Positions 3,977-37,656 of a stretch of DNA of 38,971 nucleotides are shown in pieces. Position numbers and translations under genes: made by a program. Below the pieces are notes generated by a model that ran no database searches, had not been told where the DNA came from, and worked only from the letters and a program-made list of their open reading frames with translations. Source of the stretch: a virus. The stretch is from the IMG/VR virus record IMGVR_UViG_3300003937_000007, positions 1-38,971 of that record, one strand, 5' to 3'. Within the stretch, counting starts at the first letter, position 1. The number at the start of each line of letters is the position of its first letter.

Positions 3977-4273
3977 ATGTTAAGACCGATAGGTGCAAGA
4001 GTAGTAGTTGAAAAACAAGCAAGACAAGAAAAGACAGATAGTGGTATTATAATACCAGATACTGCTAGAGAAGGTGGATTACCAGACATAGGAACAATAG
4101 TTGCATGTGGTAAGGGTTCGGTAAGTCATATGACAGGAGAAAGAATACCAATGGAAGTTAGTGTTGATGATACTATTTACTATGGTAGATTTCAGGCTCA
4201 AGAACTTGAGTATAAAGGTAAGAAATATTTAATACTTGGTGAACAAGATATTATAGCAGTGATAGAGGAGTAG
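3977..4273 (+). CDS. groES: GroES-like co-chaperonin
   Basis: Full-length Cpn10 (98 aa; E. coli GroES is 97). It opens with LRPIGARVVVEK, the family's first strand, followed by the mobile loop whose hydrophobic tip is SGIIIPD (about residues 22-28). GTIVACGKGSV and VDDTIYYGRFQAQEL are the later barrel strands, and the chain ends GEQDIIAVIEE. The protein caps GroEL and closes the folding chamber. No GroEL gene is in the window, so like T4 gp31 it presumably works with host GroEL, perhaps to fold the phage capsid protein. A weak AGG lies just before the ATG. Confidence 0.93.
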   Translation: MLRPIGARVVVEKQARQEKTDSGIIIPDTAREGGLPDIGTIVACGKGSVSHMTGERIPMEVSVDDTIYYGRFQAQELEYKGKKYLILGEQDIIAVIEE

Positions 4274-6661: not shown

Positions 6662-8104
6662 ATGAAAGAAACAATAACAAGAAAATCGGAATTAGAATCT
6701 GGATATAAATACGGATTCACTACTGATATTGAATCTTATCAAATACCAAAAGGTATTGATGAGAAAACCGTACGCTTAATTTCATCTATTAAAAAAGAAC
6801 CTAAGTGGGTAACTGATTTTAGAATAAAAGGATATAGAAGTTGGATAAGACAAAAACATCCTGAATGGCATAATCTCGATATACCCGAAATAGATTTTCA
6901 AGATATAGTTTATTATTCAGCTCCAAAAGGAACTGATGATGTAAAGACACTTGATGATTTACCAAAAGAAATTTTAGATACCTATGAGAAGTTAGGTATT
7001 CCATTACAAGAAGTAAAACAATTAGAGGGTATTGCAGTAGAGGCTGTATTTGATTCAGTTTCAGTAGGACAAGCTGTAAATAAAGCTTTAGATAAGGTTG
7101 GAGTTATATTTTGTCCTATCTCTGAAGCAGTAAAAAAGTATCCTGATTTAGTAAAAAAATATATGGGTTCGATTGTACCAGCAAATGACAATTATTATGC
7201 TGCACTTAATACGGCAGCTTTTAGTGATGGTAGTTTTGTTTATATTCCAAAGGGTGTTAGATGTCCATTAGAGTTATCTACATACTTTAGATTGAATGAG
7301 GCCAATACAGGACAATTTGAGAGAACATTAATTATAGCAGATGAAGATAGTTATGTAAGTTATCTTGAGGGTTGTTCTGCACCAATGAGAAAGGATAGTC
7401 AATTACATAGTGCTATAGTTGAGATTATAGTATTAGATGGAGCAGAAGTAAAGTACTCTACAGTACAGAATTGGTGGCCAGGAGATGAGAAAACTGGTGA
7501 AGGTGGAGTATTTAATTTTGTAACTAAACGAGGTATATGTCATGAACGAGCAAAACTTAGTTGGACACAAGTAGAGACAGGTTCAAGTATTACTTGGAAA
7601 TATCCAAGTTGTATATTAAAGGGTGATGATAGTGTAGGAGAATTTTATTCTGTAGCAGTTACTAAAGGAAAACAACAAGCTGATACAGGAACAAAAATGA
7701 TTCATATTGGAAAGAGAACTAAATCCACAATAGTTAGTAAAGGGATTTCTGCAGGTAAAGGACAACAAACCTATAGAGGTGGAGTTAAAGTATTAAAAGG
7801 TGCTAAAAATGGTAGGAACTATACTCAATGTGATTCATTACTTATTGGTAGTGATTGTGGGGCACACACATTTCCATATATAGAAGTGAAGAACCCAACT
7901 TTTACTCAAGAACATGAGGCATCAACTTCAAAGGTAAGTGATGAACAATTGTTTTATTGTCAACAAAGAGCAATAAATACAGAAGATGCTATAAGTTTAA
8001 TTGTAGGTGGATTCTGTAATGATGTATTTAATAAACTACCGATGGAGTTTGCTGTTGAAGCAAACCAACTATTGGCTGTAAGTCTGGAGGGAACAGTAGG
8101 ATGA
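6662..8104 (+). CDS. sufB: Fe-S cluster assembly protein SufB
   Basis: Full-length SufB (480 aa; E. coli 495) with strong identity throughout, for example [65 protein letters not shown] and GAHTFPY. Residues used for cluster building in E. coli are kept: Cys238 (E. coli Cys254, in LEGCSAP), Cys390 (Cys405, in TQCDS), His418 and Glu419 (His433/Glu434, in QEHEAS). The SufBCD complex assembles Fe-S clusters on SufB. No SufC, SufD, SufS or SufE gene is in the window, so the product must work with host partners or replace host SufB. The Cys-rich segment after YYSAP in E. coli is absent here. Start ATG 6662 is six bases after the tmRNA and lacks a clear Shine-Dalgarno sequence. Confidence 0.97.
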
Positions 8105-22879: not shown

Positions 22880-23377
22880 ATGCCCTATACAATAAAACAA
22901 GCTAGAAATACAGATTATTATAAAAATGTACAAGATGCAGACGAACATAAACTTTTAAAACATTTAGAAGAAGAAAAGAAAAGAGCTGCAATGTCTGGTT
23001 CTGCACTTGATGCAACAGACCCATTGAGAGATGAAAGAGGATTTTTATTATCATACGAAGACCCTAAAAATCCAGGTGCTTCAATGGAAAAGGAACACCA
23101 ATATGTTAGACTTCCTGTAGTACAAAAATCTTCAAATAAAGACTTGTGGTTAAAGTTTTTTGGTCCTGAAGAATTAGGCGGGAATGGAAAATCAGTATTT
23201 AATGAATTACTTACTGAAGTACCACCTGAAGAACCAGAAGTAACACCTCCTGAACTTGAGGGAATGAGAATAGAATTACAATCTAAGATAGATGCTCAAG
23301 ATGAATTGAATATAACATTAGATGAAACTATAACAGAATTACAAGAAGAACTTGCAAAAGTAGCAGAGGGTGATTAA
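22880..23377 (+). CDS. Hypothetical tail protein with C-terminal coiled coil (165 aa)
   Basis: No family recognised. Residues 1-110 are charged with an early helix (DEHKLLKHLEEEKKRAAMSG) and a proline/glutamate linker (EVPPEEPEVTPPELEG). Residues 125-162 form a coiled coil (LQSKIDAQDELNITLDETIT). Its stop overlaps the start of the 1595-aa gene. Possibly an assembly chaperone or connector for that large protein. Confidence 0.65.
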   Translation: MPYTIKQARNTDYYKNVQDADEHKLLKHLEEEKKRAAMSGSALDATDPLRDERGFLLSYEDPKNPGASMEKEHQYVRLPVVQKSSNKDLWLKFFGPEELGGNGKSVFNELLTEVPPEEPEVTPPELEGMRIELQSKIDAQDELNITLDETITELQEELAKVAEGD

Positions 23378-26300
23378 TGTTAGAATACGGATTAAATCAA
23401 AAAGATAAAGAACAATTAGAAATTCCTGGACTGTTACCTTCTGGATTTGGTAGAAGAAATGAAGATTATATTCATATCTATGTTTATCAATCAGAAGACT
23501 TAACTACTGATGAAGACGATGTATTAGTTGGAGATGAAATATTTCCAGCAGGAGATGTATTTCCTGATGATAGAAAACTTGATTTAGATATAGGTGGACA
23601 TTTACGACAAATGGGTTTTACAGAAGGAACTTATAAAGTTAAGTATTTGTTTCTAAAGAGAATTGCTGGAAAAGAACAAACTGTATTTATAAATGAAGAT
23701 GGTGAGGTTCATGTTGGTAAAGTTCAAACAAAAGTTATTAATGGAAAAACAAAATATTTCTCAACTAAAAAATTTGGTAAAAGACAATCAAGACAAGAAC
23801 TAAAAGAAATATTTCCAAAAGAATTAAAATATGTTGTAAAGAAAATATCTGCTGATAAAACAGAAGTTGAAGTAGATACTCAAAATATTCAAAACGCACT
23901 TTATAAAAAGAGAATAAAAGAAATAAATTCGTGGATAACTTATACGCCACTTACAAATTCTACTTCAGGTAAAATAAGATTTGATTTAACCGACCCAAAT
24001 ATATTAGTATTAACACCACACGATAAAGAACCAGGATTTAGTGATGCTATGATTGGTGGTAAAATAACAATTAAAGGTGTGTATAGTATTACTGGCAAAC
24101 AGATTGCAGCTAGAATGAAACCAATAGTTTTCCCAAAATCAGTTTTTACTCCAGAAGATTTATCAAGTATAGATATTTTTGCAGGAGTTACACAAGGAGT
24201 GGAACAACCAACTGTAGATGAGCAGATTAATGTAAGAGCAGTAGATGAAGAAATGGTTGGTGGGAACGACAAGTTTTCAGGTGTTTGTTTTACAGGGAAT
24301 ACTAAAGTAAAATTAAGTAATGGTAGACAAGTTCCAATAAAATATTTAAGACATGGAATGAAAGTCAAAACAGAAATTGGTTATGCAAAAATATTAAAAG
24401 TAATTAAAGATGAAAGACCTTATGGTGATACACTTTCTAAATTTAAAAATCTAATAACTACAGATAACCATCCAATGAAGTATCGTGGTAAATGGTATAA
24501 GGCTCATGAGATTGGTAAGTTATTTCAATCTAAACCACTTAATGTTTATAATTTAATTCTTGATAAACACCACACAATAGTTGCAAACAATGTTGTTTGT
24601 GCAACTCTTGGTAAGTGGGAATCAATGAAGAAGTTTGAAATGTGGAGAGAAAGACAAATCACTATGTTGAGAGCTATGGATGAAGGTGATGATTGGAGTA
24701 TGGGTGGAGATTCTTCTACTGACAATGAGGGAATGACTTATAGTACACCATATATTGCAAATAATGAAGTTGTAGTTAATGCCCCACCACCAAGTGTAAC
24801 TCCAGACAATATTAGAGAGGCAATAGCTATGAGTCAGGCTTCAACTGATGCCCCAACGGTTACAGTACCAGCTCCAGCAATTGTAATACCAATTGATTAT
24901 GTTGGAACAATTGTTGAGGTGTTAGACAATAATAGAATAAGAGTTGATACATCATATGAACAAGGTGCAAATAAATTTGAACATAGTGGTGAAGATAATT
25001 CAAGAGCAATATTTGATGAATGTTTTGTTAATTTCAAAAAAGGACAAGTTGAAAGATTAAATACTTATATGGTTTGTAATGGAAGTTATCACTTAGTACT
25101 TAATTATTTAAAAAATCCATTTGGAGCTGAAACTTCAAGATTAGTAAAGTTATACGATAAGGTAGAAGAAACAGAAGAAATGGATTTGTGTTATTTCGTA
25201 GAAGAGAAAATGGAGCCATATGAAGATACGATTACTTTAGTTCCATTTGTAGAGGAAGATCCTGAAATATTATTTTTAAGATTACCAGATTTTAACTCTA
25301 CTAATAATCCAATAAATTTTCGTGGAACAAACTTTAATAACTATACTCAATTAATCGGAACAGATTCGGGAGTACAAGAAGATATTCAAAATAAATTAGT
25401 TTCACAAAGTTTACTTGATACCCAAGTCAATGTTGATTATACAAGAAGAACAGATTATTTAGGAAGTGATATAACAGATTATGGATTTGCTAATCACATT
25501 CACTTTAGTAGTGCAGAAAAAAGAATTGATAATTTTAAAACGAAATTAGAATTAATTGAATTATATGTTTCATCAAGTGATTCATTTCAAGATATAACTG
25601 GTTCTGAAGAAACTATTGGTGAATGGAATGCTAAAAAACGAAGAGTAATTAATTCATTTGATCCATTAGAACATTATATGTATTTTGAATCATCTTCATA
25701 CGCTTCGAGTTCAGTTGGAGAATACTACTCAGCTTCTTGGCCTAAGTCAAATTCATCTTCACCATATACATTAGTTCATACGAGTGGTTCTGCAGCAACA
25801 ACTTGGTTTGATACTTGGAGAGGATATGCAGAAGATTTTGATAGAAACAATCGTGATAGATTAGCTAATAATATACCACTTCATGTAAATACTGATACTC
25901 AAAATAATACATTTATAGATTTTCTTGATATGACTGGACAACAATTCGATGAGATTTGGAGTTATCTAAAACACTTCACAGATATAAATGAAAGAAGTAA
26001 TAAATTATCAGAGGGTATATCAAAGGATATTGTTAGAGAAGTTGCTAGGAGTATGGGATTTGAACTTACTAATGGTAATGATTTAATGATACTTCCAGAA
26101 TATTTGTTGGGTAAAGAAGCAGATGGTACTACTAAATATGAATCACCACAAGACCAGGTAACAGAAGAAATATGGAAAAGAATTTTAGCAAATACACCTT
26201 TCTTTCTGAAGACAAAAGGTACTATGAGGGCAATGAAAGGATTGTTAAATTGTTATGGTATACCAAGTTCAATATTACGAGTAAGAGAATATGGTGGTCC

Positions 26301-28164
26301 TGATAAAGGAACAAGAGTTTCTTATGAGATAAAAAGAAAGTTTACATATGCATTAGATTTTAAATCTTCAGAGTATGTTCAAGTGCCATGGAATGATGAT
26401 GGTACGAGTGGAATAAAACCTGAAACAGTAGAGTTTAGATTTAGAAGTCCAAAATCAAAAGACCAAGTTATATTGAATCAAGGAACTAATTGGGCAATAT
26501 CATTACAAGATAATGGAGCAACTGATGATTATGGATATTTAGAATTTGCTATTAGTGGTAGTTCTCTTGAATTTGTTACTTCATCTTTATTACCAGTTTA
26601 TAATGATGAGATGTGGAGTGTTATGTTAACGAGGAAATCAGCAAGTGGAGCTGAGTTAACTGCAGATACAACTTCACAAAATATAACTTATGAGTTAACA
26701 ACAAAACAATATGATTCAAGTAGAGAAGTTGTAAGGTTTGCAAGTAGTCAAAGTTTATCAACAAATACTGCAGCGACAAATGCTAAATTTGTTGCAGATG
26801 GTACTCTAAGTTTTGGTGGAAGTGGAACAGGGTTTTATACAACACAACTTAGTGGTTCATTAATGGAGCTTAGATTGTGGAGTGAACCATTATCACAGGA
26901 TTCATTTGATAACCATGTTAGAGCACCAAAATCTTATAATGGAAATACTACTGAATCTTTCTTTGATAATTTAATTCATAGGACACAATTGAATGATAAT
27001 GTAACATTAGATGCAACTTCAAGTTTTACCGATAATAGTTTTTCACAAACATATAATGCAACTGGTAGTGCTAAGAGTTTTAGTGGTAATCAATTTAGAA
27101 GTATTGTAGATAAAGAAGAATTAAGAGTTCCAAACATTGGGCCAAATAGAAGAAATGCAACCAAGATAAGATTAGAGGATAATACTTTAACTGGACCATT
27201 ATCATCTAATATTAGAAAAGAAAAATCATCACAAGATTTCGCACCTATAGATAGTAATAAACTCGGAATATTCTTTTCACCGACTGATGTAGTGAATGAG
27301 GATATAATGTATTCTATAGCGGATTTTAATTTTGATAATTTGGTTGGAGACCCAAGAGATGTTTATGAAGATAGTTATCGTGGATTAGAATTACAACAAA
27401 GAAAGTATTGGAAAAAATATTCACAAACAAATAACTTTTGGGATTATTTGAGAATCATAGATTATTATGATAGTGGTATTTGGCAACAACTTAGAAGTTT
27501 ATCACCAGCGAGAGCAAACACAACTCTTGGTGTATTGATTGAACCAAACATTTTAGAAAGAAGTAAAGTTGTTATTGGTAAAATTCCAGAATTTGATAAT
27601 CAATATTTTGAAAATGCAGGACACTTTGATGTTGGAATAGATATGACTAATTTCATAAGTGGTTCTGATGATAGGATGATGATTCTAACTGGTGAGTTTC
27701 CAAACTATAATGGAACTATAAATATACACAATAATGAAAGTGGTTCACTTGGAACATTAGCAATGCCATCATTGGTGAGATTGGGAGAAATTGACCCGAG
27801 AACAGAATTTGGTAATACATATGCTACAGCAAGTACTACACAGGGTGCTGTATCAAGAGTATTTACAGAAACATTACAACCTTATATTAGTTCTTCAAGA
27901 CTTGCAGAACACAATGAAATAAAATATAAGAATTATGCGAGTTCACAAGATGCTTATACTGATACACCACTTAGTTCATCATTTGAACCAGCGGAATATC
28001 AGAGTATGGCATATGACTCAAAACTTTTTAGACTTTTTTATAAAGGTCAATTATTAACAAAGAAAAATACAATAGATGGAAACGACCCCGTTGAGATAAC
28101 TATAACATCACCAACAAAACTTGTAACACAAGAACCAGGTGATTCTAAACTAAAAGTTGAATAA
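23377..28164 (+). CDS. Giant baseplate/tail protein with internal Hint domain and lectin-like domain (1595 aa)
   Basis: The largest gene. The N-terminal region (about 1-300) reads as a baseplate-type domain (HIYVYQSEDLTTDEDD, GTYKVKYLFLKR). Residues 304-407 are a Hint fold (see separate entry). The middle (about 440-980) is unassigned, with a segment MGFELTNGNDLMILPEYLLG common in phage wedge or fibre proteins. About residues 989-1175 look like a concanavalin/LamG-type lectin: YALDFKSSEYVQVPWNDD, then FRFRSPKSKDQVILNQ and GSLMELRLWSEPLSQDSF. The C terminus is beta-rich. In position it corresponds to the T4 gp7/gp8 region, and it probably forms the outer wedge and carries a receptor-binding or fibre-docking surface. 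ATG 23377 overlaps the previous stop (TAATG). Confidence 0.8.
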   Translation: MLEYGLNQKDKEQLEIPGLLPSGFGRRNEDYIHIYVYQSEDLTTDEDDVLVGDEIFPAGDVFPDDRKLDLDIGGHLRQMGFTEGTYKVKYLFLKRIAGKEQTVFINEDGEVHVGKVQTKVINGKTKYFSTKKFGKRQSRQELKEIFPKELKYVVKKISADKTEVEVDTQNIQNALYKKRIKEINSWITYTPLTNSTSGKIRFDLTDPNILVLTPHDKEPGFSDAMIGGKITIKGVYSITGKQIAARMKPIVFPKSVFTPEDLSSIDIFAGVTQGVEQPTVDEQINVRAVDEEMVGGNDKFSGVCFTGNTKVKLSNGRQVPIKYLRHGMKVKTEIGYAKILKVIKDERPYGDTLSKFKNLITTDNHPMKYRGKWYKAHEIGKLFQSKPLNVYNLILDKHHTIVANNVVCATLGKWESMKKFEMWRERQITMLRAMDEGDDWSMGGDSSTDNEGMTYSTPYIANNEVVVNAPPPSVTPDNIREAIAMSQASTDAPTVTVPAPAIVIPIDYVGTIVEVLDNNRIRVDTSYEQGANKFEHSGEDNSRAIFDECFVNFKKGQVERLNTYMVCNGSYHLVLNYLKNPFGAETSRLVKLYDKVEETEEMDLCYFVEEKMEPYEDTITLVPFVEEDPEILFLRLPDFNSTNNPINFRGTNFNNYTQLIGTDSGVQEDIQNKLVSQSLLDTQVNVDYTRRTDYLGSDITDYGFANHIHFSSAEKRIDNFKTKLELIELYVSSSDSFQDITGSEETIGEWNAKKRRVINSFDPLEHYMYFESSSYASSSVGEYYSASWPKSNSSSPYTLVHTSGSAATTWFDTWRGYAEDFDRNNRDRLANNIPLHVNTDTQNNTFIDFLDMTGQQFDEIWSYLKHFTDINERSNKLSEGISKDIVREVARSMGFELTNGNDLMILPEYLLGKEADGTTKYESPQDQVTEEIWKRILANTPFFLKTKGTMRAMKGLLNCYGIPSSILRVREYGGPDKGTRVSYEIKRKFTYALDFKSSEYVQVPWNDDGTSGIKPETVEFRFRSPKSKDQVILNQGTNWAISLQDNGATDDYGYLEFAISGSSLEFVTSSLLPVYNDEMWSVMLTRKSASGAELTADTTSQNITYELTTKQYDSSREVVRFASSQSLSTNTAATNAKFVADGTLSFGGSGTGFYTTQLSGSLMELRLWSEPLSQDSFDNHVRAPKSYNGNTTESFFDNLIHRTQLNDNVTLDATSSFTDNSFSQTYNATGSAKSFSGNQFRSIVDKEELRVPNIGPNRRNATKIRLEDNTLTGPLSSNIRKEKSSQDFAPIDSNKLGIFFSPTDVVNEDIMYSIADFNFDNLVGDPRDVYEDSYRGLELQQRKYWKKYSQTNNFWDYLRIIDYYDSGIWQQLRSLSPARANTTLGVLIEPNILERSKVVIGKIPEFDNQYFENAGHFDVGIDMTNFISGSDDRMMILTGEFPNYNGTINIHNNESGSLGTLAMPSLVRLGEIDPRTEFGNTYATASTTQGAVSRVFTETLQPYISSSRLAEHNEIKYKNYASSQDAYTDTPLSSSFEPAEYQSMAYDSKLFRLFYKGQLLTKKNTIDGNDPVEITITSPTKLVTQEPGDSKLKVE
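24286..24597 (+). other. Hint (hedgehog/intein-type) domain coding segment
   Basis: Residues 304-407 of the 1595-aa protein. Block A: CFTGNTKVKLSNGRQVPIKY with nucleophile-position Cys304. Block B: ITTDNHPMKY, giving the TxxH motif. Block F: NVYNLILDKHHTIVANNVV. Where inteins end in HN followed by Cys/Ser/Thr, this domain continues VCATLGK, so the terminal Asn is absent. Confidence 0.8.
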
Positions 28165-31199: not shown

Positions 31200-31634
31200 A
31201 TGGAAACCGATGTTCAAGGTTTGTTGGAAAGCCTTATAGGACATTATGGTTGGATAGTAGTTACATTTGGTATTGGTTTCTTTTTTAAAGAGTCCATAAT
31301 GAATATGATTCAGGGTATGCAAATATTTATGGGTAACGATTTTAATAATGATGATGTTATCTATATTAGTGGCCGAGAAGCCAGAGTCGTGAGAGTCGGA
31401 ATAACTAAGACAGTATTTTACATGACCGACAGGAGAAGTAAAATGGTAGTGCCCAATGAAAAACTAAAATCCTTAACCTTAGAGAAACGATTACCGCGTG
31501 GTGCACGCCAGGCTAAAGACGGTTATTTGCCTAAATCTACCGATAAACTATCAGATAAACAAAAACAAGGATTACATGCAGTTTCTAAAGAAAAAACTGT
31601 ACGAGATAAGGGAAAAAAAATATCAAAAAAGTAG
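31200..31634 (+). CDS. MscS-like membrane protein (truncated mechanosensitive channel type), 144 aa
   Basis: Residues about 14-32 are a membrane span (YGWIVVTFGIGFFFKESIMN). Then GNDFNNDDVIYISGREARVV, followed by VGITKTVFYMTDRRSKMVVP and NEKL, matches the beta domain of MscS channels (GDxIxIxGxxGxVxxIxLxxTxLxxxDxxxVxIPNxxL). The last 55 residues are a basic tail (KDGYLPKSTDKLSDKQKQGL). Real MscS has three spans and 286 aa; here only the pore-lining end and beta domain are left. It could form a small channel, or poison or plug host MscS rings. AGGAG lies upstream of ATG 31200; it heads the envelope gene run. Confidence 0.7.
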   Translation: METDVQGLLESLIGHYGWIVVTFGIGFFFKESIMNMIQGMQIFMGNDFNNDDVIYISGREARVVRVGITKTVFYMTDRRSKMVVPNEKLKSLTLEKRLPRGARQAKDGYLPKSTDKLSDKQKQGLHAVSKEKTVRDKGKKISKK

Positions 31635-31662
31635 TAAGTTTTAATTAAAATTTAAAGGTTTT

Positions 31663-31676
31663 AATATTTATTAGTG
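31663..31676 (+). promoter_or_regulatory. Candidate late promoter, AATATTTATTAGTG
   Basis: Fourth copy of the TATTTAT-N3-TG element, 57 bases upstream of the ATG at 31734 in a 99-base gap. Confidence 0.45.
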
Positions 31677-31705
31677 GAACATATTGAGGATATAGATGAT
31701 TAATA

Positions 31706-31721
31706 CTGATTAAATAATCAG
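31706..31721 (+). promoter_or_regulatory. Hairpin next to the ribosome binding site of the 31734 gene
   Basis: CTGATT-AAAT-AATCAG is a perfect six-pair inverted repeat ending one or two bases before the AGGAAGG Shine-Dalgarno sequence. It could shield or position the ribosome binding site; effect unproven. Confidence 0.35.
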
Positions 31722-31733
31722 AGGAAGGTTAAT

Positions 31734-32099
31734 ATGAAACGATTAATTATGGTTTTGGCACTATGTGTACCATTAATGGCACAAGGAATACCAAAACAAG
31801 AAGACAAACAAGACAATGAGAATGTAGAACAACGAGATAAAAAATCTTGGACAAAAAGAGCTATAGTAGGATTACAAAATGCTGAGTGGAGAAAATTTGA
31901 TGCCGCTCACAGAAGAGCTCATTCTAAACGAGGTGAACATGCAGGTAAAGAATCTAAAAAACATAGAAGTGGTTGGGTTCGTAAGGCTGTAGGAATTGTT
32001 GTGATAGGTGGTATTGGATACTACATTGGTGTAAATGACAGAAAACATCGTAAAGGTGGTCATAAAAAACCTGGTGGATGGAATAGACCTACAAAATAA
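31734..32099 (+). CDS. Secreted basic protein with glycine-rich membrane segment (121 aa)
   Basis: A clear signal peptide (KRLIMVLALCVPLMAQG, cleavage probably after MAQ). The mature part is strongly basic and His-rich (AAHRRAHSKRGEHAGKESKK) and has one glycine-rich hydrophobic segment near residues 84-97 (AVGIVVIGGIGYYIG), like the spans of small membrane-active or glycine-zipper proteins. It ends in a His/Lys tail (HRKGGHKKPGGW). It would act in the periplasm or at the inner or outer membrane. No family recognised. Good AGGAAGG ribosome binding site. Confidence 0.65.
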   Translation: MKRLIMVLALCVPLMAQGIPKQEDKQDNENVEQRDKKSWTKRAIVGLQNAEWRKFDAAHRRAHSKRGEHAGKESKKHRSGWVRKAVGIVVIGGIGYYIGVNDRKHRKGGHKKPGGWNRPTK

Positions 32100-32125
32100 C
32101 ATTCAAAGGAGAGAGTGAACGAAGT

Positions 32126-33388
32126 ATGAGAAAATTATGGATGATACCATTGTTATTTAGTTTTGTGTTTTCACAGAATTTAATAACAGACTTTTTTAAA
32201 TATTCAACTGTATATGCTGGATTTAATTTATCTTCACCTAAATGGGAAGATGATAGATACAGATTGCAGTTAATAAATCCAGAAACTGGCCTACCAGATT
32301 GGCAGGGTGGAACTATTAGTGTAAATAAAGAAGATATAGAATTAAAACCAGATTTTGATTTCTCATTTGGTATAAGAAAAATCGCAAGATTTCATTATGA
32401 ACCAAAACGAGGAGTTAAAAATGCTGGTATAGGTGGAGATTGGTATAAAGGAAATGAATCAAGTCCAAATGATGCTGCTACAATTGGTAGAGTTAAAGGA
32501 TTTGAGTATTTAATAAAATATGAAGAAAATCGTAGATGGGATGAGGAGTTTACATCTCAAGAATATAATTTACGATATCTTGGTGATTGGTTTATTGCTA
32601 AAATTAAATACCATGATTTACAATTAGAAGACATTAAATATTCCCAAGCAGATTTGAGATTTAGAAAAGAATTTCTATTAGAGGATGCAAGTCTAAATCT
32701 ATCAGTTGGTATTGGTGGGAGAGAACATCCAGTTTATGGATTTGCCCCTACCGTTATAGATACAAGTTGGTATACAGGTTCTTGGTGGGATTTCGCATCA
32801 GATGAATTTGGTGTAAGTGATAAATACTATCGTGGTGATTTAGACGGAGATGGAGTAGGAGATGGTGGAATGACTATATATGATGCAGCTACAGGACAAC
32901 CAATAGGTTGGGTAGGTAGTGATTTTAGATGGTTTGATGCCAATGGTGAATTAATGGCAATGTCTGATAGAGAATTTTATCAATATCATTTTCCTGAATT
33001 ATTAGAAAATTGGTTTGAAGATAAAACAAAGGCATTAGGAAATCAACGAGAAATATCATTATCATTCGGTTTAGATTACTATAAATACACAGAGAACTTT
33101 TGGATACATGCATGGGGAACTTTGTTTCCTATCCACTATGGATTAGATAAATACTCTTTCCATAATGCATTTGCATTTAAAGAACATGAAAAACGAGGTG
33201 GGGATCCACTTGAGTTTGAATTTATGGATGCAGAAATAGAACAATGGAATGATTATGACTTCGGTGCAGTAATCGGATTTAAATTAAAAGATAATTTAGG
33301 ATTTTATGCTGAAGGTAAATATTTATACTATTGGGAACGCCCTACTTATGATGTACGATTAGGGTTAAATTATCAGTTTTTAAACTAA
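32126..33388 (+). CDS. Secreted outer-membrane beta-barrel-like protein (420 aa)
   Basis: Signal peptide RKLWMIPLLFSFVFSQN (cleavage near FSQ). The mature chain alternates aromatic and polar strands (YSTVYAGFNLSSP; FDFSFGIRKIARFHYEP; GDWFIAKIKYHDLQLE; ASLNLSVGIGGREHP; REISLSFGLDYYKYTENFW; FGAVIGFKLKDNLGFYAEGK) and ends DVRLGLNYQFLN, an outer-membrane-insertion type C-terminal signature. An Asp-rich loop, DLDGDGVGDGG near residues 238-248, looks like a calcium-binding (EF-hand/dockerin-like) turn. No named porin family. Such a protein in a phage may alter the host surface, for example superinfection exclusion; speculative. Confidence 0.65.
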   Translation: MRKLWMIPLLFSFVFSQNLITDFFKYSTVYAGFNLSSPKWEDDRYRLQLINPETGLPDWQGGTISVNKEDIELKPDFDFSFGIRKIARFHYEPKRGVKNAGIGGDWYKGNESSPNDAATIGRVKGFEYLIKYEENRRWDEEFTSQEYNLRYLGDWFIAKIKYHDLQLEDIKYSQADLRFRKEFLLEDASLNLSVGIGGREHPVYGFAPTVIDTSWYTGSWWDFASDEFGVSDKYYRGDLDGDGVGDGGMTIYDAATGQPIGWVGSDFRWFDANGELMAMSDREFYQYHFPELLENWFEDKTKALGNQREISLSFGLDYYKYTENFWIHAWGTLFPIHYGLDKYSFHNAFAFKEHEKRGGDPLEFEFMDAEIEQWNDYDFGAVIGFKLKDNLGFYAEGKYLYYWERPTYDVRLGLNYQFLN

Positions 33389-33404
33389 TATAGGAGAGAT
33401 AAGA

Positions 33405-33473
33405 ATGTTAAACGCATGTAAAAACCCAGATTGTAAATGTGAAAATTGCAATTGTAAAAATTGTGATTGTTAA
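33405..33473 (+). CDS. 22-aa cysteine-rich, metallothionein-like peptide
   Basis: ATG 33405 follows TAGGAGAG. The peptide is MLNA + CKNPDCKCENCNCKNCDC: seven cysteines in 22 residues, spaced C-x4-C-x-C-x2-C-x-C-x2-C-x-C, the pattern of metal-thiolate peptides. Likely binds Zn, Cu, Cd or an iron cluster. No signal peptide, so probably cytoplasmic. It lies in the 16-102 base gap region between the barrel gene and the next frame. Its shortness limits family assignment. Confidence 0.7.
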   Translation: MLNACKNPDCKCENCNCKNCDC

Positions 33474-33490
33474 TCACTCGGAGACAATAA

Positions 33491-34063
33491 GTGGATGAAA
33501 AGAAATTAGGTCAGATATTACTCGATAAAGATGTAATAACTAAACGACAATTACAGTCAGCTATACAACTACAAGTAAACGGTGATGATAGAAAAATAGG
33601 GGAAATCTTAATTGATAAGGAATTCCTTACTATGGGAGATTTAACAGATATTCTGTTAGAGAATGGTCATAGTGAGCCAACACCAGTTATACCAACCCCT
33701 GAGCCATCAGATTTAGTGGAAGGATCAGAATTGAGTAAAAATACAAAATTCAAAGTATCCATTCAGACGATGATTAGTGCTGGAGTTGGTATTGCAACAA
33801 TGGTTGGATTTTGGTACGCATTACAAGCAGACATACAAGAAGCAAAAGAGTTACCCGCGATTGGTAACATATATGACCAAGAGTATCCATCAAAACCAGA
33901 AGGATATAACTGGCCGCGTTCATATGAACAATATAAGGATAATGTTGGTGCACTTCAAGAAGATATGGATGCAGTATTTGAAACCTTAGAAGACTATGAA
34001 GAAAAGATTGAAGAATTAGAAAAGCAAGTTACAGAACTGAGAATTAAGGTGGGCAATAAATGA
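33491..34063 (+). CDS. Membrane protein with MshEN/GspE-N-like domain and coiled coil (190 aa)
   Basis: GTG 33491 has GGAG seven bases upstream. Residues 5-28 (KLGQILLDKDVITKRQLQSA, ending QLQ) and 35-58 (KIGEILIDKEFLTMGDLTDI) are tandem copies of the 24-residue pattern of the GspE/MshE N-terminal domain, where RLGxxLxxxGxIxxxxLxxxLxxQ binds cyclic di-GMP; here the Arg is Lys and one Gln is Asn. A Pro-rich linker, a membrane span near 93-112 (TMISAGVGIATMVGFWYALQ) and a C-terminal coiled coil (EDMDAVFETLEDYEEKIEEL) follow. A cytoplasmic sensor coupled through the membrane is a reasonable guess. The next gene overlaps by four bases. Confidence 0.65.
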   Translation: MDEKKLGQILLDKDVITKRQLQSAIQLQVNGDDRKIGEILIDKEFLTMGDLTDILLENGHSEPTPVIPTPEPSDLVEGSELSKNTKFKVSIQTMISAGVGIATMVGFWYALQADIQEAKELPAIGNIYDQEYPSKPEGYNWPRSYEQYKDNVGALQEDMDAVFETLEDYEEKIEELEKQVTELRIKVGNK

Positions 34064-34488
34064 AAAAAACAAGAATAATAAGAAATTTTCTATTTTGGTT
34101 TGTACTTGGATTTGTTATGATGGGTACAGTATCAAGTCAAACAAGACCTAAAGCAAAAGTAGAAATTACAGATAAAACTTTTAAGTCAGCAGTATCTAAA
34201 GGGTTTGTTGTGGTGATATTCACAGCAGATTATCAATTGAAAAATATTGATCCTAAGATGATAAAAGATATTGAAGGACATGAAAAAACTGTTGTGGTAT
34301 CAATACAACACAATAGTGTTTCAGCCGTTGTAAAGAAATTAAGGTTGAGAAATTATCCATCAATAGCTTTGTTTCATAATGGAGCAAAGAAAAAAGTTTG
34401 GAAACCAGATATGGATGGAAATTTAGGGATAACCCAAAAAGATATTAAAAAAGAAATAACCAATACATTAGCAGGTGATGTATTTTAA
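34060..34488 (+). CDS. Secreted thioredoxin-fold protein lacking CxxC (142 aa)
   Basis: Signal peptide or anchor (IRNFLFWFVLGFVMMGTVSS, then SSQ). The mature part follows a thioredoxin fold: KSAVSKGFVVVIFTADYQLK, where the active site WCxxC of thioredoxins is replaced by TADYQLK; then HEKTVVVSIQHNSVSAVVKK and LRNYPSIALFHNGAKKKVW, where NYPS is the cis-proline loop. With no active-site cysteine it cannot be a normal disulfide exchange enzyme; it may bind a protein or act as a scaffold in the periplasm. ATGA overlap with the previous gene. Confidence 0.7.
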   Translation: MKKTRIIRNFLFWFVLGFVMMGTVSSQTRPKAKVEITDKTFKSAVSKGFVVVIFTADYQLKNIDPKMIKDIEGHEKTVVVSIQHNSVSAVVKKLRLRNYPSIALFHNGAKKKVWKPDMDGNLGITQKDIKKEITNTLAGDVF

Positions 34489-34501
34489 AAAGGAGACTGA
34501 T

Positions 34502-35119
34502 ATGTTTAAAAAACTATTAGTAATAATACCGTTATTGTTTGCACTTGGATGTGAAGACAATATAAGTCATGAGCCAGAATCAACAATGAAATTGTGGTTG
34601 GATGGTGAAGTAGTAGATGTGGAAGCAAACTATGAAAAAATAACAACTTATGGTGAAGAAGTTGAATATTTTAATACAGAAGACAGTACCACATACACTA
34701 AAAAGATATTAGTTATTCACTTTCAAAAAGAAGGTGGTAGAGTAGAATTGAATAAAGAACATTATGCTGTAGTATTTACAGATTGGGAAGGTGATACTTC
34801 AAATGGTAAACCTATTGATGTAGGTGAATATCAATGGCCAGCTCAATGTCCAGTATGTGCAAGAAAATGTATTCACGGTGCATCAAGTAAATGGGTAAGA
34901 ATGGAAATCATTGGTGATTCAGATGTAGCCGTTGGTGGTCAAGCTCATATAGATGAGATAAGTAAAAGTGGAGATAGTTGGATAATAAGTGGAGAAGGTG
35001 AAGGAACATTTTTCAATCCATATATAGATGCTAATATGAATGGTAAAATACAGTTTTCAAATTTAAAAATAGATACAGATTCAGAAGAATCGCCGTATCA
35101 TAATTATGGTGGCAGATAA
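34502..35119 (+). CDS. Lipoprotein (205 aa)
   Basis: I choose ATG 34502, which has AAAAGGAG upstream; an ATG at 34475 in frame would place nine extra residues before the signal. The signal FKKLLVIIPLLFALGC ends in a lipobox with Cys17, so the mature protein is probably lipid-anchored. A central CPVCARKC cluster (about residue 117-124) could bind zinc or form disulfides. Beta-rich sequence throughout (WLDGEVVDVEANYEKITTYG; GDSWIISGEGEGTFFNPYID). No named family. It follows the thioredoxin-fold gene and precedes the TolA-like gene. Confidence 0.75.
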   Translation: MFKKLLVIIPLLFALGCEDNISHEPESTMKLWLDGEVVDVEANYEKITTYGEEVEYFNTEDSTTYTKKILVIHFQKEGGRVELNKEHYAVVFTDWEGDTSNGKPIDVGEYQWPAQCPVCARKCIHGASSKWVRMEIIGDSDVAVGGQAHIDEISKSGDSWIISGEGEGTFFNPYIDANMNGKIQFSNLKIDTDSEESPYHNYGGR

Positions 35120-35140
35120 ACCACTTGTAGGAGAAAGAAT

Positions 35141-36223
35141 ATGGCTGACGAAAATCAAGTAGAAACAAGTGAATCAGTATCAGTAGGTGATGATGAAGTT
35201 GGTGCAAGTGTAGAAGTAGATACAGGAGCAAGTGTAGAGGTAAGTGATGGTGGAGTATCAGCAGAAGCTCATTATGAAGAATCTGCAGAAGCTCATGCTG
35301 GAGTATCAACAGAATCAGACTTGGGAGAAGCTCATGCTGGAGTATCAGCCGAAGTAAGTGTTGAAGCAGAAGTTCATGCAGATGCAGGATTTGATGGTGA
35401 AGATGTGAGTGCAAGTGTTGGAGCATCAATTGAGGAAAAAGCTCAAGTAGGTGTTGAAGCAGGAGCAAGTACTGATGGGGCTGGAGTTGAAGTTTCAGGT
35501 GATGCATATGTTGAAACACACGCAACAGCAGAAGCAGATGTAAGTGTTGGAGAACATGGAGTAGAAGCTGGTGGAGAAGCATCCATTGGTTCAAGTGTCG
35601 GTGTTGAAGGTGAAGGAAGTGCAACCGTAGGAGCCGCAACTGGAACAGTTGGTGGTGGAGTTAGTGTTGGTGAACAAGTTGGAATTGGTGGAGAAGGACA
35701 CGCAACTATGGAAGATGGTGTAGTTGATGTAGGTGTTAGTGGAGATGTAGCAGCGTTAGTAGGAATTGAAGTTGATGTGGATGTACAAATAGATACTAAA
35801 GAAGTTCAGAAAGAAGCTGAAGCGGCACGAGTAGCAGCTGAAGAAGAAGCAAAACGAGTTGCTCAAGATGTGGCTGATGCAAAGAGAATTGCAGACCAAC
35901 AAGCAGCTGAGGCAAAAAGAATTGCAGATGAAGCTAAAGCAGAAGCAGAACGACAAGCCGAAGAAGTTAAGAAACAGGCTGAAGAAGCAAAACAACGAGC
36001 CGAAGAAGAAGCAAAACGAGTTGCTCAAGAAGCGGCAGATGCTAAAAGAATTGCAGAACAACAGGCGGCAGTGGCGAAAAAGAAAGCCGATGAGGCCTCA
36101 AAAGCAGCAAAGAAAGCAGCAGATGATGCAGCTAATAAAGCAAAGAAAGGTACTAAGAAAGCCACTAAGTCAATTTCAAAAGCTTTTGGTGGCGGTAAAA
36201 AGAAACATAAGAAGAAACACTAA
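35141..36223 (+). CDS. Repetitive acidic protein with TolA-like helical domain (360 aa)
   Basis: Residues 1-210 are short acidic repeats of Ala/Val/Glu/Gly/Ser (GASVEVDTGASVEVSDGGVS) with no signal peptide. Residues about 225-320 are one long Ala/Lys/Glu helix (EEEAKRVAQDVADAKRIADQ, QAEEVKKQAEEAKQRAEEEA), like the TolA stalk domain, followed by a very basic end (KKGTKKATKSISKAF, GGGKKKHKKKH). The two copies of EEAKRVAQ..AxDAKRIA show internal duplication. AGGAGA lies before ATG 35141. It could span or bundle in the cell envelope or be a virion-internal DNA-binding or tail protein; not settled. It ends one base from the next gene. Confidence 0.7.
   Translation: MADENQVETSESVSVGDDEVGASVEVDTGASVEVSDGGVSAEAHYEESAEAHAGVSTESDLGEAHAGVSAEVSVEAEVHADAGFDGEDVSASVGASIEEKAQVGVEAGASTDGAGVEVSGDAYVETHATAEADVSVGEHGVEAGGEASIGSSVGVEGEGSATVGAATGTVGGGVSVGEQVGIGGEGHATMEDGVVDVGVSGDVAALVGIEVDVDVQIDTKEVQKEAEAARVAAEEEAKRVAQDVADAKRIADQQAAEAKRIADEAKAEAERQAEEVKKQAEEAKQRAEEEAKRVAQEAADAKRIAEQQAAVAKKKADEASKAAKKAADDAANKAKKGTKKATKSISKAFGGGKKKHKKKH
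35287..35347 (+). repeat. Direct repeat pair inside the acidic-repeat gene
   Basis: AGAAGCTCATGCTGGAGTAT at 35287-35306 and again at 35326-35345, both followed by CA. The 39-base period is 13 codons and keeps frame, so the repeats encode AEAHAGVS-type units. Confidence 0.85.
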
Positions 36224-36483
36224 TGGCTATAACAGATTACGATGAATTACATGGTGGTGATGGACTACCAGATTGGATGCAATATAGTATTAGTATTGCA
36301 ATGTTTGGAATGTTTATATGGATAATTTGGTTGTTATTTCATTCTACTTTAGACCCACAGTTTAGAGACTTACTTAATATTATTGTAGGTGGTTTTTTAG
36401 CTTCATTTGGTAAAGTAGTAGACTTTTGGTTTAAACACGAAAAGTCTAAAAAGGGTGTAATGAGATGTACAGGAGGTAAATAA
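36223..36483 (+). CDS. Two-span membrane protein, holin-like (86 aa)
   Basis: Residues 19-40 (YSISIAMFGMFIWIIWLLFH) and about 51-68 (LLNIIVGGFLASFGKVVDFW) are membrane spans, followed by a charged C-terminal tail (FKHEKSKKGVMRCTGGK). Size, spans and polar tail fit class II holins, which make the inner-membrane holes at lysis. The second span plus DFWFKHEK resembles uncharacterised small holin-like proteins. It lies beside PAP2 and peptidase genes; no endolysin neighbour is clear. ATG 36223 overlaps the previous stop. Confidence 0.55.
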   Translation: MAITDYDELHGGDGLPDWMQYSISIAMFGMFIWIIWLLFHSTLDPQFRDLLNIIVGGFLASFGKVVDFWFKHEKSKKGVMRCTGGK

Positions 36484-36633
36484 ATGCCAAACAGAAAAGC
36501 AAAAGATAGAAAAGCTAAACGACAGAAGTTAAATGAAAAATGGAAACGAGAAGGTCGTACTGCCGTTCAACATAAAAAATGGTTGAAGAAAAATGGTGGT
36601 AAACAAAAACCAAAATATGGAGTTTATTCGTGA
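36484..36633 (+). CDS. Small very basic protein (49 aa)
   Basis: ATG 36484 follows the previous stop directly. Almost half of the residues are Lys or Arg (NRKAKDRKAKRQKLNEKWKR, HKKWLKKNGGKQKPKYGVYS), so nucleic-acid or membrane binding is likely. Its stop overlaps the GTG of the next gene. No family recognised. Confidence 0.6.
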   Translation: MPNRKAKDRKAKRQKLNEKWKREGRTAVQHKKWLKKNGGKQKPKYGVYS

Positions 36634-37277
36634 TTAAATTAAAAGAACTTATAGAATTAAAATCTATGATTTATTCTGAAGAAGTGAAACCAAAACACCA
36701 GAAAAAAATAGATATGAAGTTGAGTGTATTTCGTGAAGATTTACAATTACCTTATAGTTTGGGTACTTCATTAAAACCTGATAATGATTCACCAACGACA
36801 ATGAGAGAATTGAAATATCTTAGTGGTTTAAAAACTAATAATGATTTAGTAGAAGAAGGTGATGATATAAAAGGAAATTTTATACCATTAATTGATGAGA
36901 ATGAAATACCAATTTCTAAAACTTATGTAAAACAGGTTATTAAAGAAAGTGCAAAATTTGTCATGGAGATGAAATATCATTATAATCGTCCAAGACCATT
37001 TCAGGTTGCAGAAGTTTATGGTATAGATTTAAAAGGACATAAAACTGATAGTATGAATACACCAAGTTATCCAAGTGGACATGCAATTCAAGGATATTTA
37101 GTTGCAGAATTATTCTCATTTGTAGACCCAAAGAATTCAAAACAATATCAAGAAATTGGTGAATCAATTGCACACTCAAGAATAAATGCTAAGGCTCATT
37201 ATCCAAGTGATAAGAAATTTGGTAAGAAAGTCTCTGAAGTTTTATTTAAAGGGTTGATAAAAAATGATAACACTTAA
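36630..37277 (+). CDS. PAP2-superfamily acid phosphatase-like protein (215 aa)
   Basis: GTG 36630 overlaps the previous stop (GTGA). All three PAP2 signatures are exact: K-x6-RP with Lys115 and Arg122-Pro123 (KYHYNRPRP), PSGH at 148-151, and SR-x5-H-x3-D from Ser183 to Asp194 (SRINAKAHYPSD). These residues bind phosphate or vanadate and form the active site. No signal peptide or clear membrane spans, so it resembles soluble class A acid phosphatase or haloperoxidase-like members. A role in phosphate scavenging or in membrane lipid or cell-wall precursor metabolism would fit. It overlaps the next gene by 14 bases. Confidence 0.85.
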   Translation: MIKLKELIELKSMIYSEEVKPKHQKKIDMKLSVFREDLQLPYSLGTSLKPDNDSPTTMRELKYLSGLKTNNDLVEEGDDIKGNFIPLIDENEIPISKTYVKQVIKESAKFVMEMKYHYNRPRPFQVAEVYGIDLKGHKTDSMNTPSYPSGHAIQGYLVAELFSFVDPKNSKQYQEIGESIAHSRINAKAHYPSDKKFGKKVSEVLFKGLIKNDNT

Positions 37278-37656
37278 AGAAGTATACCAATTAGATGAGA
37301 GAACAGATTTTCAATATGTTGCTTCTGAATTAGTAAAATATTATGGATTGAGAAGTAAAATAAAATTTGGTACTTATGGTAAAAATGAAGGTGATTATGA
37401 TTTTGATAATGATGTAATTAAATTACGAAAAAGTTACCCAAATGTCAAGGAATTTATAGTTTCAGTACTACATGAGATACATCATGCAACTCAAGTAAAG
37501 AAGTATGGTAAAAAAAGATTTTTAAAGAAATATATTCAAGCCAGTAATATGGCAGATTTTGATGGTTTTAATCGATATGACAATAATAAATGGGAAAGAA
37601 AGGCTGAAAATTGGGCCAATCAAGAATATCGTAGATTTTGGAAAAATAAATTCTAA
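37264..37656 (+). CDS. HExxH zinc metallopeptidase-like protein (130 aa)
   Basis: The zinc motif HEIHH is at residues 70-74, preceded by a helix (NVKEFIVSVL), followed by the downstream WERKAENWANQE segment, whose Glu111 or Glu115 may be the third ligand (pattern of ImmA/IrrE or WLM-like peptidases). N-terminal part contains a beta pair (IKFGTYGKNEGDYDFDNDVI). It starts inside the PAP2 gene. A soluble zinc peptidase; the target is unknown. ImmA-type peptidases often cleave regulators, and related ones act on cell wall. Confidence 0.75.
   Translation: MITLKEVYQLDERTDFQYVASELVKYYGLRSKIKFGTYGKNEGDYDFDNDVIKLRKSYPNVKEFIVSVLHEIHHATQVKKYGKKRFLKKYIQASNMADFDGFNRYDNNKWERKAENWANQEYRRFWKNKF

Follow-up and report, generated by a model that had tools for sequence, protein, structure and literature searches.

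We describe a block of genes lying downstream of the tail genes in IMG/VR virus record IMGVR_UViG_3300003937_000007, and propose, with a probability of about 0.42, that it consists of two joined late gene groups, namely a trans-envelope set acting at the lysis stage and a set of head-packaged enzymes. The entire linear record of 38,971 bases was analysed (hereafter the window); it is probably a fragment. Group 1 comprises an outer-membrane beta-barrel, a Cys-rich micropeptide, a protein with an MshEN-like domain, one transmembrane (TM) segment and a periplasmic coiled coil (TMCC), a thioredoxin (Trx)-fold protein, a lipoprotein and sometimes a short MscS-like protein. Group 2 comprises a PAP2-superfamily phosphatase and an HExxH zinc peptidase, both with an N-terminus resembling a capsid-targeting sequence (CTS). 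An initial annotation had placed all of these in a single envelope-remodelling cassette of 11 genes; it saw a true concentration of envelope proteins, yet merged two systems. Composition, conservation, synteny, tag statistics and lysis-gene proximity, on which the present reading relies, were determined from sequence.

Conserved core of a mosaic block

Synteny was examined with three scans, using the tail protein directly upstream of the block (35 related viral loci), the barrel family (75 viral loci, including 26 that were non-redundant at 90% identity and had enough flank) and TMCC (at least 528 relatives confirmed). Among the 26 non-redundant barrel loci, the Trx-fold gene was present in 26, TMCC near the barrel in 25, the lipoprotein in 15, the MscS-like gene in 7, the zinc peptidase in 7 and PAP2 in 1. 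In non-redundant flanked loci, and among the matches listed, the Trx gene directly followed TMCC with a barrel (39/39) as well as without one (10/10); given this adjacency in 49/49, the TMCC-Trx pair is the most constant element and the barrel is its usual third partner. The closest relatives, L002 and L003, are 99% identical in tail and barrel; in L002 the gene for the basic secreted protein is absent, PAP2 is reduced to a C-terminal remnant and the lipoprotein is shortened to 64 amino acids (aa). The core is made up of the barrel, the Cys-rich micropeptide, TMCC, the Trx-fold protein and the lipoprotein, the MscS-like gene and the gene once called TolA-like being accessories.

The synteny search that the initial annotation had put forward as a test, naming lack of conservation as grounds for rejection, found the core conserved and the full group of 11 genes not. 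A single envelope-remodelling cassette of all 11 genes would account for the overlaps between genes, their common strand and the export of several products; it is hardly tenable, since it is contradicted by the synteny counts, which show members gained and lost independently, with PAP2 at only 1/26 barrel loci and several members missing from L002, and since the N-termini of PAP2 and the zinc peptidase are of the capsid-tag type. Nor did the candidate late promoters, taken earlier as a sign of coordinated expression, rise above chance: the motif TATAAATA occurred 11 times for 8.6 expected, and sigma70-like sites 29 times for 37 expected. With counts at this level, both T4-type late promoters and sigma70 sites were rejected as signals of the block.

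What did stand is a real cluster of exported envelope proteins downstream of the tail genes for which no counterpart was found. Its core recurs as a module in uncultured marine phages, and we found no prior description of it. Searches of cultured phage records with the barrel, TMCC and Trx-fold proteins (tblastn) gave no match, only one insignificant alignment. The barrel was found in 0/245 and 0/396 host genomes from the phyla surrounding one Marinimicrobia and one Bacteroidales genome, respectively, and in none of the genomes of a collection scanned with clade-specific patterns, neither search including a positive control.

All open reading frames (ORFs) of the initial gene list were present as described and are listed in Table 1, together with a 49-aa ORF that had been missed. 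Most have Shine-Dalgarno sites, and several overlap by 1-14 nt. In Pfam, the MscS beta-domain, thioredoxin and PAP2 matches exceeded their cut-offs; a PHROGs search of the block proteins gave nothing convincing.

Table 1. Features of the gene block, in window coordinates
Feature	Position	Strand	Evidence
Short MscS-like protein, one TM + beta-domain	31200..31634	+	PF00924 1.5e-7
Exported basic protein, accessory	31734..32099	+	29 Lys/Arg in 121 aa
Outer-membrane beta-barrel with signal peptide, module core	32126..33388	+	75 viral loci, AlphaFold2 model, Foldseek
Cys-rich micropeptide MLNACKNPDCKCENCNCKNCDC with Shine-Dalgarno site	33405..33473	+	recurrent in relatives
TMCC: MshEN-like domain, one TM, predicted periplasmic coiled coil	33491..34063	+	profile match to PilF/PilB/MshE
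Exported thioredoxin-fold protein without CXXC	34060..34488	+	PF00085 1.5e-6
Lipoprotein, acidic mature N-terminus (CEDN)	34475..35119	+	lipobox Cys invariant, 20 homologues
Low-complexity acidic/helical protein, locally GC-rich, outside core	35141..36223	+	poorly conserved
Small membrane protein, 'holin-like' in appearance only	36223..36483	+	family near barrel in 19/75 loci
49-aa strongly basic protein, in both module types	36484..36633	+	29 distinct homologues
PAP2-superfamily phosphatase, capsid-targeting-like N-terminus MIKLKELIE	36630..37277	+	PF01569 2.2e-9, tag statistics
HExxH zinc peptidase, capsid-targeting-like N-terminus MITLKEVYQLDE	37264..37656	+	HExxH in 10 homologues, tag statistics

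Some of the smaller genes did not keep the identity first given to them. The helical protein thought to be TolA-like is of low complexity and not conserved, and the holin-like protein matched no significant lysis family in Pfam or PHROG. The secreted basic protein is indeed exported and basic, and is absent from the closest neighbour, L002. The homologues of the 49-aa basic protein are 46-50 aa long, with a net charge of +13 to +17 and a conserved EGRTxxQHKKW-type core; a role as a disruptin was considered for this protein.

The envelope module and its proximity to lysis genes

A role of group 1 in lysis is suggested by the genes that surround it in other phages. In phages whose barrel is only about 30% identical, the triad of barrel, TMCC and Trx-fold genes adjoins an M15 endolysin (PF08291 5.6e-24, phrog_894 2.4e-37) and a holin with three TM segments (phrog_3427 3.1e-17), the endolysin ending no more than about 25 nt from the TMCC start in these distant triad phages. 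In barrel-free phages a GH108 endolysin (7.3e-24) or a transglycosylase-like protein is encoded downstream of the TMCC-Trx pair, at a distance of a few genes, and in one phage a DUF5675 gene lies upstream. Overall, 19 recognisable lysis genes were found within 5.5 kb of TMCC (640 kb) versus 1 farther out (243 kb).

The barrel had no match in Pfam, PHROG or NCBIfam. A first model built with 8 sequences (pLDDT 52) was discarded, and the AlphaFold2 model used was built with 51 homologues (pLDDT 69). It matches solved outer-membrane barrels as a class (Foldseek, 184 matches at 1e-3 or below), in agreement with the initial call; scores for individual structures (TM score) are low, so the model supports the outer-membrane beta-barrel fold class and no specific function. 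One viral entry of BFVD was matched at 1.7e-22. The MscS beta-domain was likewise confirmed (31.8 bits for a cut-off of 20.2), in a protein of 144 aa with one TM segment that lacks the TM1-TM2 arrangement and the C-terminal alpha/beta cage of the MscS channel. A literature search for phage-encoded MscS found nothing.

Residues 4-60 of TMCC match PilF, PilB and MshE by profile (7e-10 to 3e-5), which bears out the MshEN-like assignment; this N-terminal domain is absent from distant TMCC members (alignment A10). The N-terminal TM segment (read from the sequence) followed by a periplasmic coiled coil (from coiled-coil matches) is the arrangement by which an i-spanin is recognised. Receptors of cyclic di-GMP of the MshEN type have two 24-residue motifs with Gly at position 10 (PMC5013675). 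In TMCC, Asp occupies position 10 in 26/26 of the sequences that fit the rest of the motif, and no protein has two motifs; the domain homology holds and TMCC does not qualify as a receptor of this type. These data bear on the idea that TMCC is an antiholin-like regulator of lysis timing responding to a cytoplasmic or envelope signal, with the periplasmic and outer-membrane partners providing the input. The cytoplasmic MshEN-like domain, the lysis genes near TMCC and the recurrence in the same cassettes of a membrane protein that binds cyclic nucleotides (f13) fit this idea, which we consider improbable given that the cyclic di-GMP motif is broken in all members and the domain is missing from the distant ones. 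The f13 protein (L118, 9262-9915), which recurs in barrel cassettes, combines several TM segments with a cyclic-nucleotide-binding/Popeye (POPDC) domain (PF00027 1.6e-15, PF04831 2.4e-14).

The periplasmic thioredoxin fold was recovered with its cis-Pro; the CXXC motif was found in 0/26 homologues, which makes a redox enzyme unlikely. At the expected signal cleavage column, 23/26 homologues have Gln, a feature known as the 'Bacteroidetes Q rule' (PMC10367356). The lipoprotein, also predicted initially, is about 200 aa long in the window and probably starts at 34502. Its mature form begins with C-E-D and is acidic like Bacteroidota surface-export signals, without their leading polar or basic residue. 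Lipoprotein genes were found near TMCC in 30/53 cases versus 2/155 in the comparison. An o-spanin, by comparison, is a short outer-membrane lipoprotein that faces the periplasm; the match to a PHROG spanin was weak (E 0.27).

The Cys-rich peptide is a real ORF of 22 codons between barrel and TMCC; it has at least 7 Cys and is preceded by a good Shine-Dalgarno site. At this place relatives encode other peptides that are no less rich in Cys, some with repeat expansions in which the Cys are kept. Cys-rich ORFs were searched up to 1.2 kb upstream of TMCC, and were found in 9/39 barrel loci, 5/7 PorV-type loci (among the matches listed) and 2/134 control windows, while a single one turned up in 819 kb of a Markov control. 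Their presence in 0/10 barrel-free loci led us to reject the micropeptide as a universal member; judged from these counts, it is a real recurrent element and not a universal one. In some barrel-free phages, the gene just upstream of TMCC encodes an exported protein with a weak heavy-metal-associated (HMA) match (L304, 5670-5984; 0.0016), which together with the micropeptides hints at metal binding.

The exported proteins could also be virion components, such as tail-associated adhesins, as the tail genes adjoin and related cultured phages place tail fibre and spike genes here. This is very improbable in view of the signal peptides or lipobox of the barrel, the Trx-fold protein and the lipoprotein, and of the outer-membrane barrel fold, which would be unusual in a virion part.

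The reading that we favour is that group 1 would span the inner membrane, the periplasm and the outer membrane. TMCC would be anchored in the inner membrane with its coiled coil reaching into the periplasm, the Trx-fold protein would serve as a binding adaptor rather than as an oxidoreductase, and the barrel and the lipoprotein would sit in the outer membrane. Located between tail and lysis genes, the group has its most likely role at the end of infection, where these proteins, if they form a complex with the predicted topology, would link and breach the two membranes, or gate their breaching. That it is a late trans-envelope module acting at lysis is advanced tentatively from the proximity to lysis genes.

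The capsid-type tag of the phosphatase and the zinc peptidase

The phosphatase assignment made initially was upheld, the KX6RP, PSGH and SRX5HX3D motifs being invariant in 8 homologues. For the zinc peptidase, the HExxH motif is invariant and the family matches (Tox-MPTase4, MPTase-PolyVal) are weak. Packaging in the head fits both enzymes better than the envelope remodelling first proposed for them, as a capsid-targeting-like N-terminus stands in place of a signal peptide; PAP2 begins with the tag itself and has no PhoC-type signal peptide.

N-terminal peptides of the type MIKLK(D/E)LLxE were found, at candidate starts, in 98 unique proteins of about 34 families, versus 1.0 expected when start codons inside these proteins serve for comparison. 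The number of families is approximate, since some of them, such as those of PAP2 and the zinc peptidase, were joined in the clustering. Examples were already known when the pattern was defined, which weakens its support for packaging. A [LIVFM]xE site was present in residues 6-14 of 89/98 tagged proteins versus a shuffle mean of 42 (maximum 54). Counting one protein per family, Leu4 is found in 100% (Leu4 belongs to the search pattern itself), Leu or Ile occupies position 7 in 96% and Glu position 10 in 67%, with a hydrophobic residue at position 8 and no constraint at position 9. The candidate processing Glu is at position 9 in the PAP2 of the window and at position 12 in the zinc peptidase. 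In T4 IPIII, residues 4 and 7 serve capsid targeting and residues 8 and 10 processing (PMC9026906), and the tag positions Leu4, Leu/Ile7, hydrophobic 8 and Glu10 coincide with these functional positions of the T4 CTS. The T4 CTS is recognised as an N-terminal propeptide of 10-19 residues with hydrophobic residues 4, 7 and 8 and a processing Glu, and by sequence the tag agrees with this pattern.

The baseplate wedge protein of the window shares 47% identity with its counterpart in Microcystis phage Mel-JY01 and 40% with the one in Flavobacterium phage immuto; the annotation of both phages includes T4-like capsid genes as well as a prohead protease. The head region lies outside the window and outside the contig of L002; a gp21-like protease is known from the contigs of relatives (58-62% identity to Mel-JY01), where it occurs with PAP2 and the zinc peptidase (L075) or with the barrel module and the zinc peptidase (L152). 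A PF03420 search for the protease gave 0 matches with no working control, and a direct gp21 query was used instead. From these sequence features, PAP2 and the zinc peptidase are probably head-packaged, injected proteins: the tag would direct them into the prohead, a gp21-type protease would trim them, and they would be injected with the DNA.

Sister phages, host and relation to known systems

In a sister group of phages (L008, L009, L012, L019, L023, L024 and others), the slot between the tail gene and the genes of the 49-aa protein, PAP2 and zinc peptidase holds a different gene set, with an exported protein of about 950 aa (cohesin and a type A sorting domain of the type IX secretion system, T9SS), a PorV/PorQ-family protein, a TMCC homologue, a lipoprotein and others. 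The TMCC profile matched 23/23 of the sister TM-coiled-coil proteins. At these PorV-type loci the PorV-like barrel is upstream of TMCC, and the Trx gene directly follows TMCC in 0/7 (among the matches listed). The T9SS cargo scored 25.5, 23.4, 29.0 and 28.5 bits (TIGR04183, cut-off 23) and the PorV_fam proteins 100.7, 103.3, 94.2 and 90.1 bits (cut-off 90), that of L008 being below at 75.8. The order cohesin/T9SS cargo, PorV/PorQ-family outer-membrane protein and TMCC downstream was observed in L008 (11275-15127), with homologues in L009, L012, L019, L075, L082, L087 and L095. A CsgG/curli identity, suspected for sister protein c9 from its C-terminus, was rejected after no PDB profile match up to E 1 and no Pfam match were obtained. 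Pseudopilin-like (f28, no Pfam match) and type IV pilin-like genes (f15, N_methyl motif) lie directly downstream of the module in L129 (14132-15268) and also in L133, L134, L141 and L142.

The sister T9SS and PorV genes, the Gln column of the Trx-fold protein and the lipoprotein start together point to a Bacteroidota-type host. The window further encodes a phage tmRNA (6250-6657, tag AQNHQPTYAYA) adjoining a SufB-like gene (6662-8104) whose best matches (63-68%) are scattered over many phyla and do not settle the host. A peptide deformylase gene (2020-2667), a putative GroES-like ORF (3977-4273) and a 1595-aa tail-region protein (23377-28164) with a Hint (Vint) domain (1.2e-18), which suggests splicing or autoprocessing of a structural protein, were also noted.

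Surface or superinfection roles of the envelope module would be an alternative. In the form of late surface remodelling, the barrel and a surface lipoprotein would block or replace the phage receptor, for superinfection exclusion or progeny protection, with TMCC and the Trx-fold protein aiding assembly. In its favour, the module comes directly after a tail gene pair, a position comparable to that of T5 llp next to the gene for receptor binding (PMC4728585), the lipoprotein has an acidic N-terminus, and the sister slot is occupied by genes for a T9SS cargo and a PorV/PorQ-like protein. For T9SS cargo encoded by phages, a part in superinfection or competition has been suggested (PMC7468147). We nevertheless find this on balance unlikely, because the TMCC-Trx pair is kept without the barrel and clusters with lysis genes in unrelated phages.

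The lysis-stage reading of group 1 has its own difficulties. A lysis gene of any kind was found at only 14/44 well-flanked TMCC loci, and in the window and its clade no gene of the cassette was recognised as an endolysin. Some distant triad phages have a separate spanin-like lipoprotein (f39), so that the module need not be the outer-membrane breaker. A spanin facing the periplasm would not be expected to have the acidic, surface-signal-like start of this lipoprotein, the sister slot with its genes for T9SS cargo and a PorV/PorQ-like protein suggests surface display, and the barrel model is of moderate confidence.

A more far-reaching proposal, which we regard as rather doubtful, is that phages of the marine Bacteroidota type have in common an undescribed trans-envelope lysis machine that would take the place of spanins or regulate them, made up of the outer-membrane barrel, the Trx-fold adaptor, the inner-membrane coiled coil, the lipoprotein and a Cys micropeptide that binds metal. 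These phages would also use the T4-like tag as a general system by which dozens of different enzymes, including the PAP2 phosphatase and the zinc peptidase, are packed into the head and then injected. Little is understood of outer-membrane opening by phages of Bacteroidota-like marine hosts, and the module provides a concrete, widespread gene set, unmatched in the cultured records searched. The capsid-type tag provides a simple sequence rule for predicting packed and injected proteins of uncultured T4-like phages, including enzymes unexpected in heads, and the sister slot is a sign that these phages may make use of host-specific surface secretion as well.

Among known systems, two-component spanins (lambda Rz/Rz1, Mu gp23/gp23.1) resemble group 1 in having an inner-membrane protein with a periplasmic coiled coil, a predicted outer-membrane lipoprotein and, in several phages, lysis neighbours, whereas the module adds an outer-membrane barrel, a Trx-fold protein and a Cys micropeptide, its lipoprotein has about 200 aa and an acidic start, and its genes are not nested. 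T4 IPI-IPIII and group 2 have in common an N-terminal tag, about 10 residues long and matching in its functional positions, a hydrophobic-x-Glu cleavage-like site and a gp21-type protease (on related contigs); here the tag extends over many families including enzymes, and packaging is predicted. Receptor blockers of the T5 Llp type are also exported outer-membrane proteins or lipoproteins encoded beside tail genes, but the present set is multi-component, has inner-membrane and periplasmic partners and persists without the barrel. Finally, the sister loci encode T9SS type A cargo as Cryophage does (PMC7468147), with the difference that here a PorV/PorQ-like gene comes after that of the cargo; the phage of the window has neither.

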